64,000 nt of DNA from Confluentibacter lentus. GTDB taxonomy: Bacteria; Bacteroidota; Bacteroidia; Flavobacteriales; Flavobacteriaceae. Position numbers and translations under genes: made by a program. Shown here piece by piece: positions 59,120 through 63,336 of this stretch. The notes below the pieces were generated by a model. That model was not told the origin of the DNA. It was given only the letters and a program-made list of their open reading frames with translations, and did no database searches. How positions within the stretch are numbered: the first letter of the stretch is position 1; every line of letters begins with the position of its first letter. The DNA lies in contig NZ_NIHE01000003.1 in NCBI RefSeq assembly GCF_002806995.1, positions 310,001 through 374,000 on the forward strand, given 5' to 3'.

Positions 59120-59165
59120 TTTTTTAGACTTATATATCATGCATAATTAAGTTTTGTTGAAATTA

Positions 59166-59198
59166 TTTGGAATTTTAAACTTAATTTATAGATATTTG
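59166..59198 (+). promoter_or_regulatory. Promoter of the his operon
   Basis: TTTG (59166-59169), 21 bases, then GATATTTG (59191-59198), 7 of 8 against TAnnTTTG-like -7 boxes. It lies about 18 bases before the ATG of the His leader peptide, so it is well placed to drive the attenuator and operon. Confidence 0.5.
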
Positions 59199-59215
59199 CA
59201 CATAATAAATAAAAC

Positions 59216-59272
59216 ATGACATTTATTCAAGCACATCATCATCATTTTCAAATTTGCACTCAAGCGAACTGA
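59216..59272 (+). CDS. hisL: Histidine operon leader peptide
   Basis: An 18-codon open frame from ATG 59216 to TGA 59270-59272 encodes MTFIQAHHHHFQICTQAN. Four consecutive CAT histidine codons occupy 59234-59245. It sits between a candidate promoter and an intrinsic terminator directly upstream of hisG. Its function would be to sense charged tRNA-His through ribosome position. The symbol hisL is used by analogy with enterobacteria; the sequence is not similar beyond the His run. Confidence 0.85.
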   Translation: MTFIQAHHHHFQICTQAN

Positions 59273-59335
59273 AGATGTATTGAATAAATTCAACATATTT
59301 TTTAAACCCGTTTGAGACAATCAAGCGGGTTTTTT
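59260..59335 (+). promoter_or_regulatory. Transcription attenuator of the his operon
   Basis: The terminator stem is AAACCCGTTTGA (59304-59315) with TCAAGCGGGTTT (59321-59332), 12 pairs with one G-T, loop GACAA, then T-run to 59335. The word TCAAGCG, which forms part of the 3' arm (59321-59327), also occurs at 59260-59266 at the end of the leader peptide frame. That upstream copy can pair with CGTTTGA (59309-59315) and so block the terminator. A ribosome stalled at the His codons leaves 59260-59266 free; a ribosome that reaches the stop covers it. This is the logic of classical amino-acid attenuation. Confidence 0.8.
59304..59335 (+). terminator. Leader terminator before hisG
   Basis: A 12-pair stem with one G-T pair, 5-base loop and six T, between the leader peptide and hisG. 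It is the terminator half of the attenuator. Confidence 0.88.
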
Positions 59336-59381
59336 AATTTTAATGCCAACTAGATTGTTTCAAACTCATAAAAACAAGACA

Positions 59382-60239
59382 ATGAGTAAATTAAGAATTG
59401 CAGTTCAAAAAGCGGGTCGTTTACACGACGAATCCATGGAAATTTTAAATGATATCGGCGTTTATATCGATAACGGAAAAGACCAATTAAAAGCATCTGC
59501 CAAAGGATTTCCTGTTGAAGTATTTTATTTAAGAAATGGTGATATTCCTCAGTATTTAAAGGATGGTGTTGTTGATGCGGCCATCATTGGGGAAAATATT
59601 TTAATAGAAAAAGGGGAAGGAATCACGATTGCCGAAAAATTAGGATTTTCTTCATGTAAGGTTTGTATTGCCGTTCCAAAGTCTATGAAATATAATAGTA
59701 TCAAGGATTTGGATGGAAAACGTATTGCCACGTCTTATCCAAATACCGTCCAAAGTTATTTAGATAAAAATGGGATTACTGCTAATCTTCACATTATTAA
59801 TGGTTCAGTTGAAATTGCTCCTAACATCGGACTTGCCGATGCTATTTGCGATATTGTTTCAAGTGGAAGTACGCTTTTCAAAAACAATTTAAAGGAAGTT
59901 GAAACCATTTTAAAATCCGAAGCTGTTTTAGCAGTGTCACCCGTTTTAAGTAAAGAAAAACAGGCTATACTAGACACGATTCAGTTTCGTATTCAGTCGG
60001 TTTTAAAAGGAAGACAATCTAAATATATATTATTGAACGCTCCTAACGACAGAATTCAAGACATTATTAATGTGTTACCGGGCATGAAGAGTCCGACAGT
60101 ACTTCCTTTAGCTGAAGTTGGTTGGAGTTCGGTACATTCTGTAATAAGCAAAAATGAATTTTGGGACGTGATAGACGAGTTAAAAAAGAATGGTGCCCAA
60201 GGTATTTTGGTGTGTCCTATCGAAAAAATGGTTTTATAA
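59382..60239 (+). CDS. hisG: ATP phosphoribosyltransferase
   Basis: A 285-residue first enzyme of histidine synthesis. LRIAVQKAGRL opens the first domain, GITIAEKLGFSSCKVCIAVP and ADAICDIVSSGSTLFKNNL (PRPP site) follow, and a C-terminal ACT/PII-like regulatory domain (about 210-285) has SPTVLPLAEVGWSSVHSVI. This is the long, histidine-inhibited form. The ATG at 59382 is preferred to that at 59343, because the family begins MSKLRIAVQ and the earlier ATG overlaps the attenuator's trailing region. It is the first structural gene of the operon. Confidence 0.93.
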   Translation: MSKLRIAVQKAGRLHDESMEILNDIGVYIDNGKDQLKASAKGFPVEVFYLRNGDIPQYLKDGVVDAAIIGENILIEKGEGITIAEKLGFSSCKVCIAVPKSMKYNSIKDLDGKRIATSYPNTVQSYLDKNGITANLHIINGSVEIAPNIGLADAICDIVSSGSTLFKNNLKEVETILKSEAVLAVSPVLSKEKQAILDTIQFRIQSVLKGRQSKYILLNAPNDRIQDIINVLPGMKSPTVLPLAEVGWSSVHSVISKNEFWDVIDELKKNGAQGILVCPIEKMVL

Positions 60240-60249
60240 GATTTGTTTA

Positions 60250-60684
60250 GTGAAAGCAGAGTTTAAAATAGAGTTGATTTCTTATGAAAAAATGGAAACT
60301 ATTCTTCCTCTCGTTGTTTTACTTAATGAAGGCAGATTTGAATATCAAATCTTGAAACAACGCCTTGATGATATGTTATCTATGGGTAATTATCAATGTA
60401 TCGGGGTCTATCGTGAAAATGAATTGATAGGAATTAGTGGATTTTGGGTATTAAACAAGCTTTACGCAGGAAAGCATATAGAACCAGATAACGTTTATGT
60501 CAAGCCTGAATTTCGTAGTAAAGGCATTGGCAATTTGATGATGCAATGGTTGTTTGACTACGCTAAGCAGATGGATTGTGAGGGGTTAGAAGTAAATTGC
60601 TATGCAAAAAATATAAAAGGCAAGAAGTTTTGGGAATCTCAAGGTTTTAATGCTTTAGGACATCACATGATTAAAAAATTTTAA
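60250..60684 (+). CDS. GNAT-family acetyltransferase within the his operon
   Basis: A 144-residue GNAT protein. The acetyl-CoA loop is in VYVKPEFRSKGIGNLMMQWLF (motif R-S-K-G-I-G), and CEGLEVNCYAKNIKGKKFWESQGF is the usual C-terminal part. I start it at GTG 60250, 10 bases after the hisG stop; an upstream in-frame ATG at 60190 lies inside hisG, and an internal ATG at 60292 is possible. It is placed between hisG and hisD with a 2-base gap to hisD. A role in histidine metabolism is not known; it may simply have entered the operon. Confidence 0.75.
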   Translation: MKAEFKIELISYEKMETILPLVVLLNEGRFEYQILKQRLDDMLSMGNYQCIGVYRENELIGISGFWVLNKLYAGKHIEPDNVYVKPEFRSKGIGNLMMQWLFDYAKQMDCEGLEVNCYAKNIKGKKFWESQGFNALGHHMIKKF

Positions 60685-60686
60685 AG

Positions 60687-61967
60687 ATGCAAATAATTGA
60701 TAATCCGAGTCAAACTACTTGGACCGACATATTAAAACGACCAACCCAAACGGTAGATGACATTGAAGCTACAGTCAATGTTGTTTTTAATGAAGTGCGT
60801 TCAGATGGGGATTTAGCCGTTAAAAAATATACTGAACGTTTTGATGGCGTAAAGTTAGATTTCAATTTAGTGACTCCAGAAGAATTTCAAGAAGCGTCAA
60901 CTTTGGTTTCAGATGCGTTGAAGAATGCCATTGATTTAGCAAAGTTAAATATTCTAGCATTTCATTCGGCCCAAAAAACGACTCGAGTTAGTTTAGAAAC
61001 TACTGAAGGTGTTAGCTGTTGGCAAGAAAAACGCCCTATTGAAAAAGTCGGTTTATACATTCCAGGCGGCACGGCACCTTTATTTTCTACGGTTTTAATG
61101 CTAGCAATTCCTGCTCAAATTGCTGGTTGTAAAGAAATTGTATTATGTTCGCCTCCAAATGAACAAGGCAAAATAGCCCCAGAAATCATATATACGGCAC
61201 AACTTTGCGGAGTGACTAAAATTATTAAAGTCGGTGGCATTCAAGCCATTGCTGGTTTAACCTTTGGCACGGAATCCATTCCTAAAGTGTATAAAATTTT
61301 CGGACCTGGTAATCAATTTGTTACGGTTGCAAAACAATTGGCGACAAAATATGGTGTTGCCATCGATATGCCCGCAGGACCAAGTGAATTATTGGTAGTT
61401 GCAGATGAAACCGCCAATGCATCTTATGTGGCATCGGATTTATTAAGCCAAGCCGAGCATGGTACCGATAGCCAGGTTATTTTGGTTTCAACGTCAAAAG
61501 ATTTAATTAAAAATGTTTCTCAAGAAATTGAAAAGCAGTTGGAAGTCCTTCCGCGGAAAGCGATTGCTGAAAAATCCATTGCAAATTCTAAACTGATTTA
61601 TATTGAAAGTGACGACATCGCTTTGGAATTGATAAACGAATACGGTCCAGAACACTTTATTATTTGTACAAAAAATGAAGATTTTTATGTAGATGGAATA
61701 TCCAACGCTGGGTCTGTTTTTATTGGTAATTACACGCCAGAAAGTGCGGGTGATTATGCATCAGGAACCAATCATACTTTACCAACTAACGGTTTTTCTA
61801 AAGCGTATTCTGGAGTGAACTTAGATAGCTTTTTAAAGAGCATGACGTTTCAGAAAATATCAAAAGGAGGATTAAAAAATATAGGAAAGGCCATTGAACT
61901 CATGGCAGAAGCAGAAGGTCTGCAGGCACATAAAAATGCGGTTTCCTTACGATTAAAGGATTTATAA
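60687..61967 (+). CDS. hisD: Histidinol dehydrogenase
   Basis: A 426-residue zinc enzyme of the last two steps. PIEKVGLYIPGGTAPLFSTVLM, VYKIFGPGNQFVTVAKQ, DMPAGPSELLVVADE and LSQAEHGTDSQVILVS are the standard blocks. The catalytic Glu/His pair is in NEYGPEHFII (about 320-329), and SAGDYASGTNHTLPT binds the metal. Length normal. It lies 2 bases after the GNAT gene and 2 bases before hisC, so all are co-transcribed. Confidence 0.95.
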   Translation: MQIIDNPSQTTWTDILKRPTQTVDDIEATVNVVFNEVRSDGDLAVKKYTERFDGVKLDFNLVTPEEFQEASTLVSDALKNAIDLAKLNILAFHSAQKTTRVSLETTEGVSCWQEKRPIEKVGLYIPGGTAPLFSTVLMLAIPAQIAGCKEIVLCSPPNEQGKIAPEIIYTAQLCGVTKIIKVGGIQAIAGLTFGTESIPKVYKIFGPGNQFVTVAKQLATKYGVAIDMPAGPSELLVVADETANASYVASDLLSQAEHGTDSQVILVSTSKDLIKNVSQEIEKQLEVLPRKAIAEKSIANSKLIYIESDDIALELINEYGPEHFIICTKNEDFYVDGISNAGSVFIGNYTPESAGDYASGTNHTLPTNGFSKAYSGVNLDSFLKSMTFQKISKGGLKNIGKAIELMAEAEGLQAHKNAVSLRLKDL

Positions 61968-61969
61968 TA

Positions 61970-63013
61970 ATGAACATACAAAACTTAATACGGCCAACCA
62001 TCAAGGCATTGAAACCCTATTCATCCGCAAGAGATGAATTTCAAGGTGTGCCTGCTGATATGGTGTTTTTAGATGCTAATGAGAATCCATTTGAAAATGG
62101 CGTCAATCGTTACCCAGATCCGCAACAAGGAAAGTTAAAAGCTATTTTGTCAGAGATTAAAGGAGTGCCTTCAAAGAATATTCTTTTAGGAAATGGTAGT
62201 GACGAAGTATTAGATTTGATTTTCAGGGCATTTTGTGAGCCTAACCAAGATAATATCATTATTCTGCCACCAACCTATGGTATGTATGAGGTTTTGGCAA
62301 ATCTGAATGCCATTGATATTATTAAAGTGGATTTGGATGGCACTTTTCAGCCGAAAGTCAATGCCATTTTAAATGCTGCTACTGAAAAAAGTAAAATCTT
62401 ATTTTTGTGCTCACCAAATAATCCAACGGCAAATAGTTTTGAAAGCTCTAAAATAGAAAAATTAATTACCGAATTTGAAGGATTGGTAGTAATTGATGAA
62501 GCGTATATCGATTTTTCAAATGAAGCTAGTTGGCTCAGTAGATTAGATGAATTTCCGAATTTAATCGTTACCCAAACCTTATCAAAAGCCTATGCCATGG
62601 CAGGAATTCGCTTAGGGATTTGCTATGCTTCCGTAGAAATCATTACTGTTTTGAATACGATTAAACCGCCTTATAATATCAATGAGCTGACTCAGAAAAA
62701 AGCCGTTGAATTGCTTAATATCAAAGATTTAGCTTCTAGCCAAATCAATGATATTTTAAAGGAACGAAGCACATTAATGGATGAGTTAAAAAACGTTACT
62801 TTTATTTCAAAAATTTATCCTTCAGATGCTAATTTTATTTTGGCAAAAGTAGATGATGCCAACAAACGTTATACGCAACTTATTGAAAAAGGCATTGTGA
62901 TTAGAAATAGAACCACGCAGGTGGGTTGCGAAAATTGTTTGAGATTTACTGTGGGCACATCTGAAGAGAATGAGAAATTAATAAAAACCCTTTTATTAAT
63001 TTCGAAATCCTGA
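61970..63013 (+). CDS. hisC: Histidinol-phosphate aminotransferase
   Basis: A 347-residue PLP enzyme. FLDANENPFENG and YPDPQQGKLKA open the protein, GNGSDEVLDLIFRAF and PPTYGMYEVLA bind the cofactor, and the Schiff-base lysine is in TLSKAYAMAGIRLG (Lys206). VIRNRTTQVGCENCLRFTVGTSEEN is the C-terminal substrate site. Its stop codon TGA (63011-63013) lies inside the first of two TCCTGAA palindromes that flank the next gene. The final residues SKS may therefore have been shaped by insertion of that repeat. Confidence 0.95.
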   Translation: MNIQNLIRPTIKALKPYSSARDEFQGVPADMVFLDANENPFENGVNRYPDPQQGKLKAILSEIKGVPSKNILLGNGSDEVLDLIFRAFCEPNQDNIIILPPTYGMYEVLANLNAIDIIKVDLDGTFQPKVNAILNAATEKSKILFLCSPNNPTANSFESSKIEKLITEFEGLVVIDEAYIDFSNEASWLSRLDEFPNLIVTQTLSKAYAMAGIRLGICYASVEIITVLNTIKPPYNINELTQKKAVELLNIKDLASSQINDILKERSTLMDELKNVTFISKIYPSDANFILAKVDDANKRYTQLIEKGIVIRNRTTQVGCENCLRFTVGTSEENEKLIKTLLLISKS

Positions 63014-63054: not shown

Positions 63055-63336
63055 ATGAAAAAATGTTATTGTTACATATTAACAAATAAAAATAGAAGTG
63101 TATTATACATTGGCTATACTGATAATTTGCAGAAAAGAATTAGCCAACACCAAAAAGGAACAGGAGCGGTATTTACCAAAAAGTACAATGTAGTTGATTT
63201 AGTTTATTATGAGGAATTTGAAGAAATGAAAGTTGCTAAATCTCGTGAAAAACAATTAAAAAATTGGCATAAGGACTGGAAATGGAATTTAGTTAAAGAA
63301 ACCAATCCTAAATTAGAGACATTAATATTAAATTAA
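63055..63336 (+). CDS. Small GIY-YIG nuclease-like protein
   Basis: A 93-residue single-domain GIY-YIG protein of the UPF0213-like group. The signature is spread over YCYILTNKNRSVLYIGYTDNLQKRI (YIL near 6-8, YIG near 19-21), with Arg and the downstream Glu in SREKQLKNWHKDWKWNLV. Such proteins are widespread in Bacteroidetes genomes as solitary genes. Here it interrupts the his operon between hisC and hisB and is bordered by matching palindromes, which suggests a mobile or domesticated cassette. Whether it cuts DNA is unknown. Confidence 0.82.
   Translation: MKKCYCYILTNKNRSVLYIGYTDNLQKRISQHQKGTGAVFTKKYNVVDLVYYEEFEEMKVAKSREKQLKNWHKDWKWNLVKETNPKLETLILN

Follow-up and report, generated by a model that had tools for sequence, protein, structure and literature searches.

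In the trp attenuator of Escherichia coli, leader RNA strands pair alternatively as a protector (1:2), an antiterminator (2:3) or a terminator (3:4), and the E. coli his leader, hisL, has more His codons and a less compact layout than the element described below. The proteobacterial his leader is catalogued as Rfam family RF00514 (the name is as given in the part of PMC9413887 used here). Firmicutes have his-leader attenuators of their own, in which three to five consecutive His codons, a terminator and an antiterminator lie upstream of his operons (PMC9413887, same part); the string 'bacteroid' has 0 occurrences in its text. Closer to the present case, a 2021 study of Flavobacterium psychrophilum reported structured 5' elements, those upstream of pheA and hisG among them, that recur in other Flavobacteriaceae genera and have no Rfam matches, together with 'strong clues' to leader-peptide attenuation ahead of amino-acid operons (PMC9723704, main text in part); section 19, where this account is given, contains no hisG leader sequence, strands or covariation and leaves the operons with such clues unnamed. 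From Bacteroides thetaiotaomicron, short ORFs reminiscent of leader peptides have been described, his not being named among them in the portion considered (PMC7366714). Within the literature searched, in which sources were covered in part, PMC9723704 alone ties a flavobacterial hisG to such an element; strand anatomy, covariation, a ribosome ruler and the spread within Bacteroidota were not found there, where openly accessible text was covered.

Here an element upstream of hisG is analysed within a stretch of 64,000 nucleotides of the Confluentibacter lentus genome (termed here the window). It is almost certainly a ribosome-mediated leader-peptide transcription attenuator of the his operon that follows the classical alternative-strand logic--that is, an RNA switch ahead of hisG that very probably senses histidine shortage via a stalling ribosome. 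The same gene in the same family carries the F. psychrophilum element mentioned above, whereas the Firmicutes attenuators belong to another phylum. Like RF00514, the window element combines a His-run leader with an alternative antiterminator and terminator upstream of hisG, but it falls below the gathering score of that family and lacks an evident Shine-Dalgarno sequence. With the E. coli trp attenuator it shares the strand logic, including the freeing of strand 2 by a stalled ribosome; it differs in the amino acid concerned, in that strand 2 lies within the last codons of the leader, and in an additional 5' lock helix, through which the start of the leader pairs with a stretch past the stop codon. 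The first-pass annotation, made from the DNA letters of the window, had presented the attenuator as a flavobacterial addition to known systems; it is indeed present, but it is not restricted to this flavobacterium, nor is it a novelty there. Rather, a textbook type of switch is conserved in a phylum where it has hardly been described.

Table 1. Positions, within the window, of the his attenuator, its component strands and the genes that follow
Feature	Position	Strand	Description and basis
Candidate promoter	59166..59198	+	TTTG 59166-59169, 21-nt spacer, GATATTTG 59191-59198; by eye
Leader peptide ORF MTFIQAHHHHFQICTQAN*	59216..59272	+	18 sense codons, ATG at 59216, TGA end at 59272
Lock strand, leader codons 1-5	59217..59230	+	pairs with 59280-59292 when ribosome-free; minimum-energy fold, duplex energies
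His codons CAT CAT CAT CAT, putatively regulatory	59234..59245	+	sequence; HHH conservation
Strand 1 (protector)	59253..59257	+	less strongly supported; pairs with 59264-59268 in strand 2
Strand 2, last leader codons CTCAAGCGAA, copy of terminator 3' arm	59259..59268	+	59259-59266 pairs with strand 3 as antiterminator
Internal hairpin between strands 2 and 3	59271..59302	+	contains lock partner 59280-59292; fold, pair counts
Strand 3 AAACCCGTTTGAG, terminator 5' arm, also antiterminator	59304..59316	+	folds, pair counts
Strand 4 TCAAGCGGG plus T run, intrinsic terminator 3' arm	59321..59335	+	fold, pair counts
hisG, ATP phosphoribosyltransferase	59382..60239	+	ORF list; PF01634, PF08029
GNAT acetyltransferase gene	60190..60684		between hisG and hisD
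hisD, histidinol dehydrogenase	60687..61967	+	PF00815
hisC-like aminotransferase	61970..63013	+	PF00155

The his operon of the window runs in the order hisG, GNAT acetyltransferase, hisD and hisC-like aminotransferase (Table 1). An ORF variant starting at 59343 probably represents an earlier, unused ATG of hisG, and the listed start of the acetyltransferase gene, which overlaps hisG, is probably too early. Directly 3' of the hisC-like gene there is a small gene with a GIY-YIG nuclease domain (63055-63336), after which an ORF on the same strand extends from 63378 to the end of the window. By hisG the nearest named species among the matches listed is Confluentibacter flavum (95% identity), and a Flavobacteriales assembly reaches 96% identity to the window's hisG; most of the other genera in the match list are Flavobacteriaceae.

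The coordinates given in the first-pass annotation for an 18-codon frame (59216-59272) with four consecutive CAT codons (59234-59245) are borne out: ahead of the biosynthetic operon stands a short ORF with consecutive codons for the amino acid that the operon makes. The duplication of TCAAGCG that it described, at 59260-59266 and 59321-59327, is likewise real, and is recovered here as the slightly longer repeat CACTCAAGCG/CAATCAAGCG (9/10 identical); the upstream copy can pair with 59309-59315 as had been suggested, CGTTTGA being its complement with one G-U pair. As for the reported 12-pair stem followed by six T, the stem (59304-59332) does comprise 12 pairs, one of them G-U, around a 5-nt loop, and T occupies 59330-59335, but the first three T also close the stem. 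By sequence, then, an intrinsic terminator lies between the leader and the first gene, and it has an arm in common with a mutually exclusive antiterminator, the choice between the two being set in silico by ribosome position. Folding of 59200-59345 (146 nt) gives z = -6.72, with 0/200 shuffles as stable, and the segment 59256-59322, which is nearly devoid of the terminator 3' arm, folds as the antiterminator (-16.8 kcal/mol, z = -4.19). The supported strand logic is fuller than one duplication: it comprises the antiterminator, the terminator and the 5' lock helix, together with a protector hairpin that is more weakly supported.

The segment 59166-59198 is likely, from its sequence, to be a promoter, with the upstream TTTG, as we assume, forming one of its elements. 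Between -25 and -15 of the ATG, TTTG occurs in 60/64 loci of the 'FIQ' type and in 21/68 others, as compared with 5.7% of mononucleotide shuffles. In the window, GATATTTG (59191-59198) differs by one base from the flavobacterial sigma-A box TAnnTTTG, which is placed at -12 to -5 in the part of PMC9723704 considered; on this basis transcription is predicted to start at about 59203, leaving a 5' UTR of about 13 nt. The leader has an A at -3 and no evident Shine-Dalgarno sequence; across the family, Shine-Dalgarno-like words occur in 5/130 loci with an ATG start, and an A-rich stretch precedes the ATG. Their absence, to which the first-pass annotation had drawn attention, is thus correct but is no peculiarity of this leader, inasmuch as it is normal for the phylum: Bacteroidetes mRNAs are described as lacking Shine-Dalgarno sequences, with initiation favoured by an A at -3 (PMC6847099, in the part covered).

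By analogy with the established trp and his mechanisms, we infer the transcription start, stalling, termination and histidine response of the element as follows. The transcript would begin about 13 nt upstream of the leader's ATG. Under a shortage of charged His-tRNA, the ribosome would stall at the four His codons with its front edge short of strand 2, of which 59259-59266 could then pair with 59309-59316 of strand 3; this antiterminator would block the terminator, and RNA polymerase would proceed into hisG and the following genes. When histidine is sufficient, the ribosome would instead reach the stop codon and cover strand 2, leaving strand 3 to pair with strand 4 (59321-59332), and transcription would end at about 59335. 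In the absence of a ribosome, strand 1 and, in this genome, the lock helix (59217-59230 with 59280-59292) would hold strand 2, so that the terminator would also form.

Conservation was explored in the Flavobacteriaceae, where hisG is present in 5/5 genomes of the genus and in 175/199 genomes of the family. The main set (n = 132) consists of upstream sequence from 130 of these 175 family genomes plus two further members of the genus; L005 (the fifth genus locus) and L182 were excluded as lacking upstream sequence, their contigs beginning inside hisG. The 45 of the 175 genomes outside the main set are mostly more diverged, and the best-scoring 30 loci were taken per search, which tilts the sample towards closer relatives; two of the 45 (G114 and G150) both have an ORF with a His run. 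Using as criterion an ATG or GTG, three to seven residues and then a His run allowing one other residue, the leader was found in 132/132 loci; in other words, the element is kept across all examined Flavobacteriaceae loci with upstream sequence. The first-pass annotation had named conservation of the His run in relatives as a check on its reading, and the run is indeed conserved: 126/132 loci have, ahead of hisG, an ATG ORF of 8-30 codons that contains HHH, as compared with 3/2640 dinucleotide shuffles, and the next commonest three-residue run in short upstream ORFs, that of Asn, occurs in 5/132 loci. Among 80 named hisG loci, 79 have upstream sequence, and the leader was found by script in 78 (16 of which duplicate a main-set element exactly) and by eye in L187, where the run reads His-Tyr-His-His. 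A strict motif (CATCAY, 15 nt, CARGCG, 30-60 nt, CCGTTTGA) matches 113 sites in 112/199 family genomes, the reversed pattern matching 0 sites in the same 199 genomes; those of the 113 sites that were compared by eye with hisG coordinates lie just upstream of hisG. One genome has the motif twice, with identical matched sequence (G124:C81 and G124:C126). A terminator-like stem accompanies the parsed leader in 131/132 family loci, and in L062 a hairpin is seen by eye. Ribosome-mediated attenuation needs a ribosome close behind RNA polymerase. The conservation of the element in the family, with comparable layouts elsewhere in Bacteroidota, offers a natural test of transcription-translation coupling in a phylum whose sigma factor is unusual and whose mRNAs lack Shine-Dalgarno sequences.

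The distance from the last His codon to the CARGCG core of strand 2 is 15 nt in 126/132 loci, 18 nt in five and 9 nt in one, the offset for each locus being whichever of 9, 12, 15 or 18 nt gave the best pairing; so nearly fixed a distance is a ready ruler for locating the ribosome's front edge in flavobacteria. The geometry was modelled by masked folding, in which an assumed footprint, reaching from 14 nt upstream to 15 nt downstream of the first P-site base, was hidden, the remainder was folded up to the end of strand 3, and an antiterminator was called at five or more expected pairs. The antiterminator is predicted in 131/132 loci when the ribosome occupies the last His codon and in 0/132 when it occupies the stop codon, as would be expected if, as first proposed from the window's sequence, ribosome position chooses between terminator and antiterminator; because the 15-nt rule was used to place strand 2, these counts illustrate the geometry and are not independent of the spacing count. 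A modelled ribosome one codon, and partly two codons, past the last His still leaves strand 2 free, and the antiterminator fades over the second and third codons past the run; in the window itself the fold changes between Phe11 and Gln12. Without a ribosome an antiterminator is predicted in 57/132 loci, so the branch in which no translation means termination is not uniform. For the full-length transcript, folding favours the terminator over the antiterminator even when a ribosome sits at a His codon; being thermodynamically disfavoured in the complete RNA, antitermination would have to be kinetic, with the switch occurring during transcription.

Pairing was counted for each helix in 66 of 131 distinct family sequences (every second one) in alignment A1, using shuffles, which leave shared ancestry in place as a confounder, and slid versions of each helix, which keep ancestry and for every helix score lower on cells paired and on covariation score; the counted structures were drawn from the window's own fold and are thereby favoured over the slid versions. 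With this in mind, the antiterminator, terminator, lock helix and internal hairpin each exceed all 500 shuffles and all slid versions in cells paired and in covariation score. For the antiterminator, 97.9% of cells are paired (96.9% in shuffles), with three pairs showing two-sided changes (0.5 in shuffles); for the terminator the corresponding values are 98.2% (96.3%) and five (1.0). The lock helix has 73.2% of cells paired as compared with 63.9%, and 78 two-sided cells as compared with 40.4; its two-sided-change pairs number 11 as compared with 9.5, a value reached by 58/500 shuffles. The internal hairpin has 77.6% of cells paired (74.3% in shuffles) and eight two-sided-change pairs (6.1 in shuffles, reached by 62/500), some slid versions having more such pairs. 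The protector has 83.3% of cells paired as compared with 79.5%, but a single two-sided-change pair as compared with a shuffle mean of 1.1 (412/500 shuffles reach one), and further pair types are rarer than in shuffles; over the 132 loci its varying pair takes the form C-G 68 times and U-A 41 times, with C never opposite A, a variation that could stem from a single split in the tree. The energy of the lock duplex is -9.24 kcal/mol for a locus's own strands and -7.03 (sd 0.21) when strands are permuted among 131 loci; loci of other than the common FIQ type (n = 68) likewise favour their own partner (-7.55 as compared with -6.56 when swapped), whereas for the 63 FIQ loci the own partner is hardly better than a swapped one (-11.06 as compared with -10.66).

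That covarying pairs should be sought around the TCAAGCG duplication had also been proposed beforehand, and both conservation and covariation are found: the antiterminator covaries, and the strand-2 hexamer is paired with the strand 3 of its own locus at 6/6 positions in 123/132 loci, 5/6 in seven and 4/6 in two. Strand 3 is CCCGTTTGAG in 110/128 parsed loci; more variation is seen in strands 2 and 4, mostly A/G exchanges that leave the position paired, which is the pattern expected of a strand 3 constrained by two partners. At the level of sequence, the comparison shows the strands of the switch, their conservation, their covariation and their spacing, and it indicates that the RNA pairing, rather than the peptide, is what is conserved. 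This bears on the possibility that the ORF encodes a functional His/Cys-rich micropeptide (e.g., a metal-binding one) and that the terminator is a separate matter, a reading to which the conservation of the His run and, in many loci, of a nearby Cys lends something, although that Cys is replaced in other loci, often by Gly. Conservation instead tracks base pairing: 125/132 leaders use GCG at the Ala position, as compared with 68/604 Ala codons in hisG (counted in 31 loci passing a 3 kb filter); in three loci, useful as natural variants, a stop codon falls within strand 2 and shortens the peptide, with pairing still 6/6 (L042, L048, L077); three others have Met, Val or Thr for Ala with strand 2 still 6/6 paired (L099, L105 and L089, respectively); and in L105 strands 2, 3 and 4 are all altered with pairing retained. 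Since stop codons or other residues replace Gln-Ala while pairing stays, the micropeptide was rejected as an explanation, and we give it very little credence.

Marginally more credible, though still very improbable, is a switch that acts on hisG translation or on RNA stability, the hairpin not being a transcription terminator: the end of the T run is only 8 nt from the ATG at 59343 and 47 nt from the likely hisG start. That likely start lies outside the hairpin, however; the T run directly follows the hairpin in the window; and the terminator-like stem recurs in all but one of the parsed family loci. Least probable of all, to the point of being negligible, is a ligand- or protein-binding element (a T-box, riboswitch or repressor site) beside which the His ORF would be incidental. 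T-boxes and a repressor do control his genes in other phyla (PMC9413887, in part), but the near-fixed spacing from the His run to strand 2 would then have no role. No Rfam family reaches its gathering score anywhere in the whole window, and neither the T-box nor RF00514 is among the 16 Rfam matches at E up to 10 in 59150-59400. A T-box, riboswitch or known leader family was accordingly rejected, the sub-threshold matches (among them RF02579, E = 0.015, and RF00513, E = 0.31) being far under their gathering scores. The element thus has no Rfam family, and alignment A1 could seed one.

Beyond the Flavobacteriaceae, hisG was found in 103/118 genomes of the phylum, part of which were read, yielding 78 loci from other Bacteroidota families. 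A short ORF with at least three His in six residues precedes hisG in 51 of these 78 loci (26/1560 shuffles), and one with at least four His in six residues in 46 (0/1560 shuffles). In 35 loci a leader and a terminator are both present, and for 24 of the 35 the complementarity of leader to terminator arm has p<0.05 against mononucleotide shuffles; the mean score of the 35 for their own partners, 8.84, exceeds all 5000 permutations (mean 6.02). The paired sequences often are unrelated to CAAGCG, as in L156 (GCGGTAGGCT with GGCTTACCGC) and L179 (GAGCCGGG with CCCGGCTT). The complementary strand begins 10-18 nt past the last His in most distant loci and 5-8 nt past it in several nearer non-family loci, the latter often being an effect of the script, which takes in one more His beyond the run. 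By the criteria used, 16/78 loci have a His-rich ORF and no terminator, and 27/78 have no His-rich leader, namely four from 0.6 Mb genomes, all 16 loci read in which HisG is 27-36% identical to that of the window, and seven others. The four from 0.6 Mb genomes (L159-L162, same order) keep hisG, but the 330 nt upstream of it contain no His-rich leader. Comparable layouts, built from other sequences, occur in part of the remaining Bacteroidota. We lean towards regarding the attenuator as an ancestral, vertically kept device in Bacteroidota, or in a large part of the phylum. Its sequences would have turned over completely, but the ribosome ruler would have stayed: a His run, then about 12-18 nt, then the antiterminator strand, in mRNAs whose 5' UTR is very short and which have no Shine-Dalgarno sequence. 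If so, tight transcription-translation coupling in Bacteroidota would be implied.

Attenuation in the genome of the window probably is a small regulon embracing his, trpE and pheA, given that the latter two genes, read in this genome alone, also have candidate leaders with hairpins. Upstream of trpE (L262:1318-1380, G000:C12; trpE from about 1444) the leader MNTILNNTWWWSFRNLNFVK, with three Trp codons, is followed by a terminator-like hairpin, as is, upstream of pheA (prephenate dehydratase; L261, reverse strand 1355-1432, G000:C1), the Phe/Tyr-rich leader MRTAYYTYFSNFYFFFSKRIEALYV. By eye, the last codons of the trpE leader (TTCGTGAAG) look complementary to TTCACGA of the hairpin, and the later codons of the pheA leader include ATCGAG, complementary to CTCGAT in the terminator arm.
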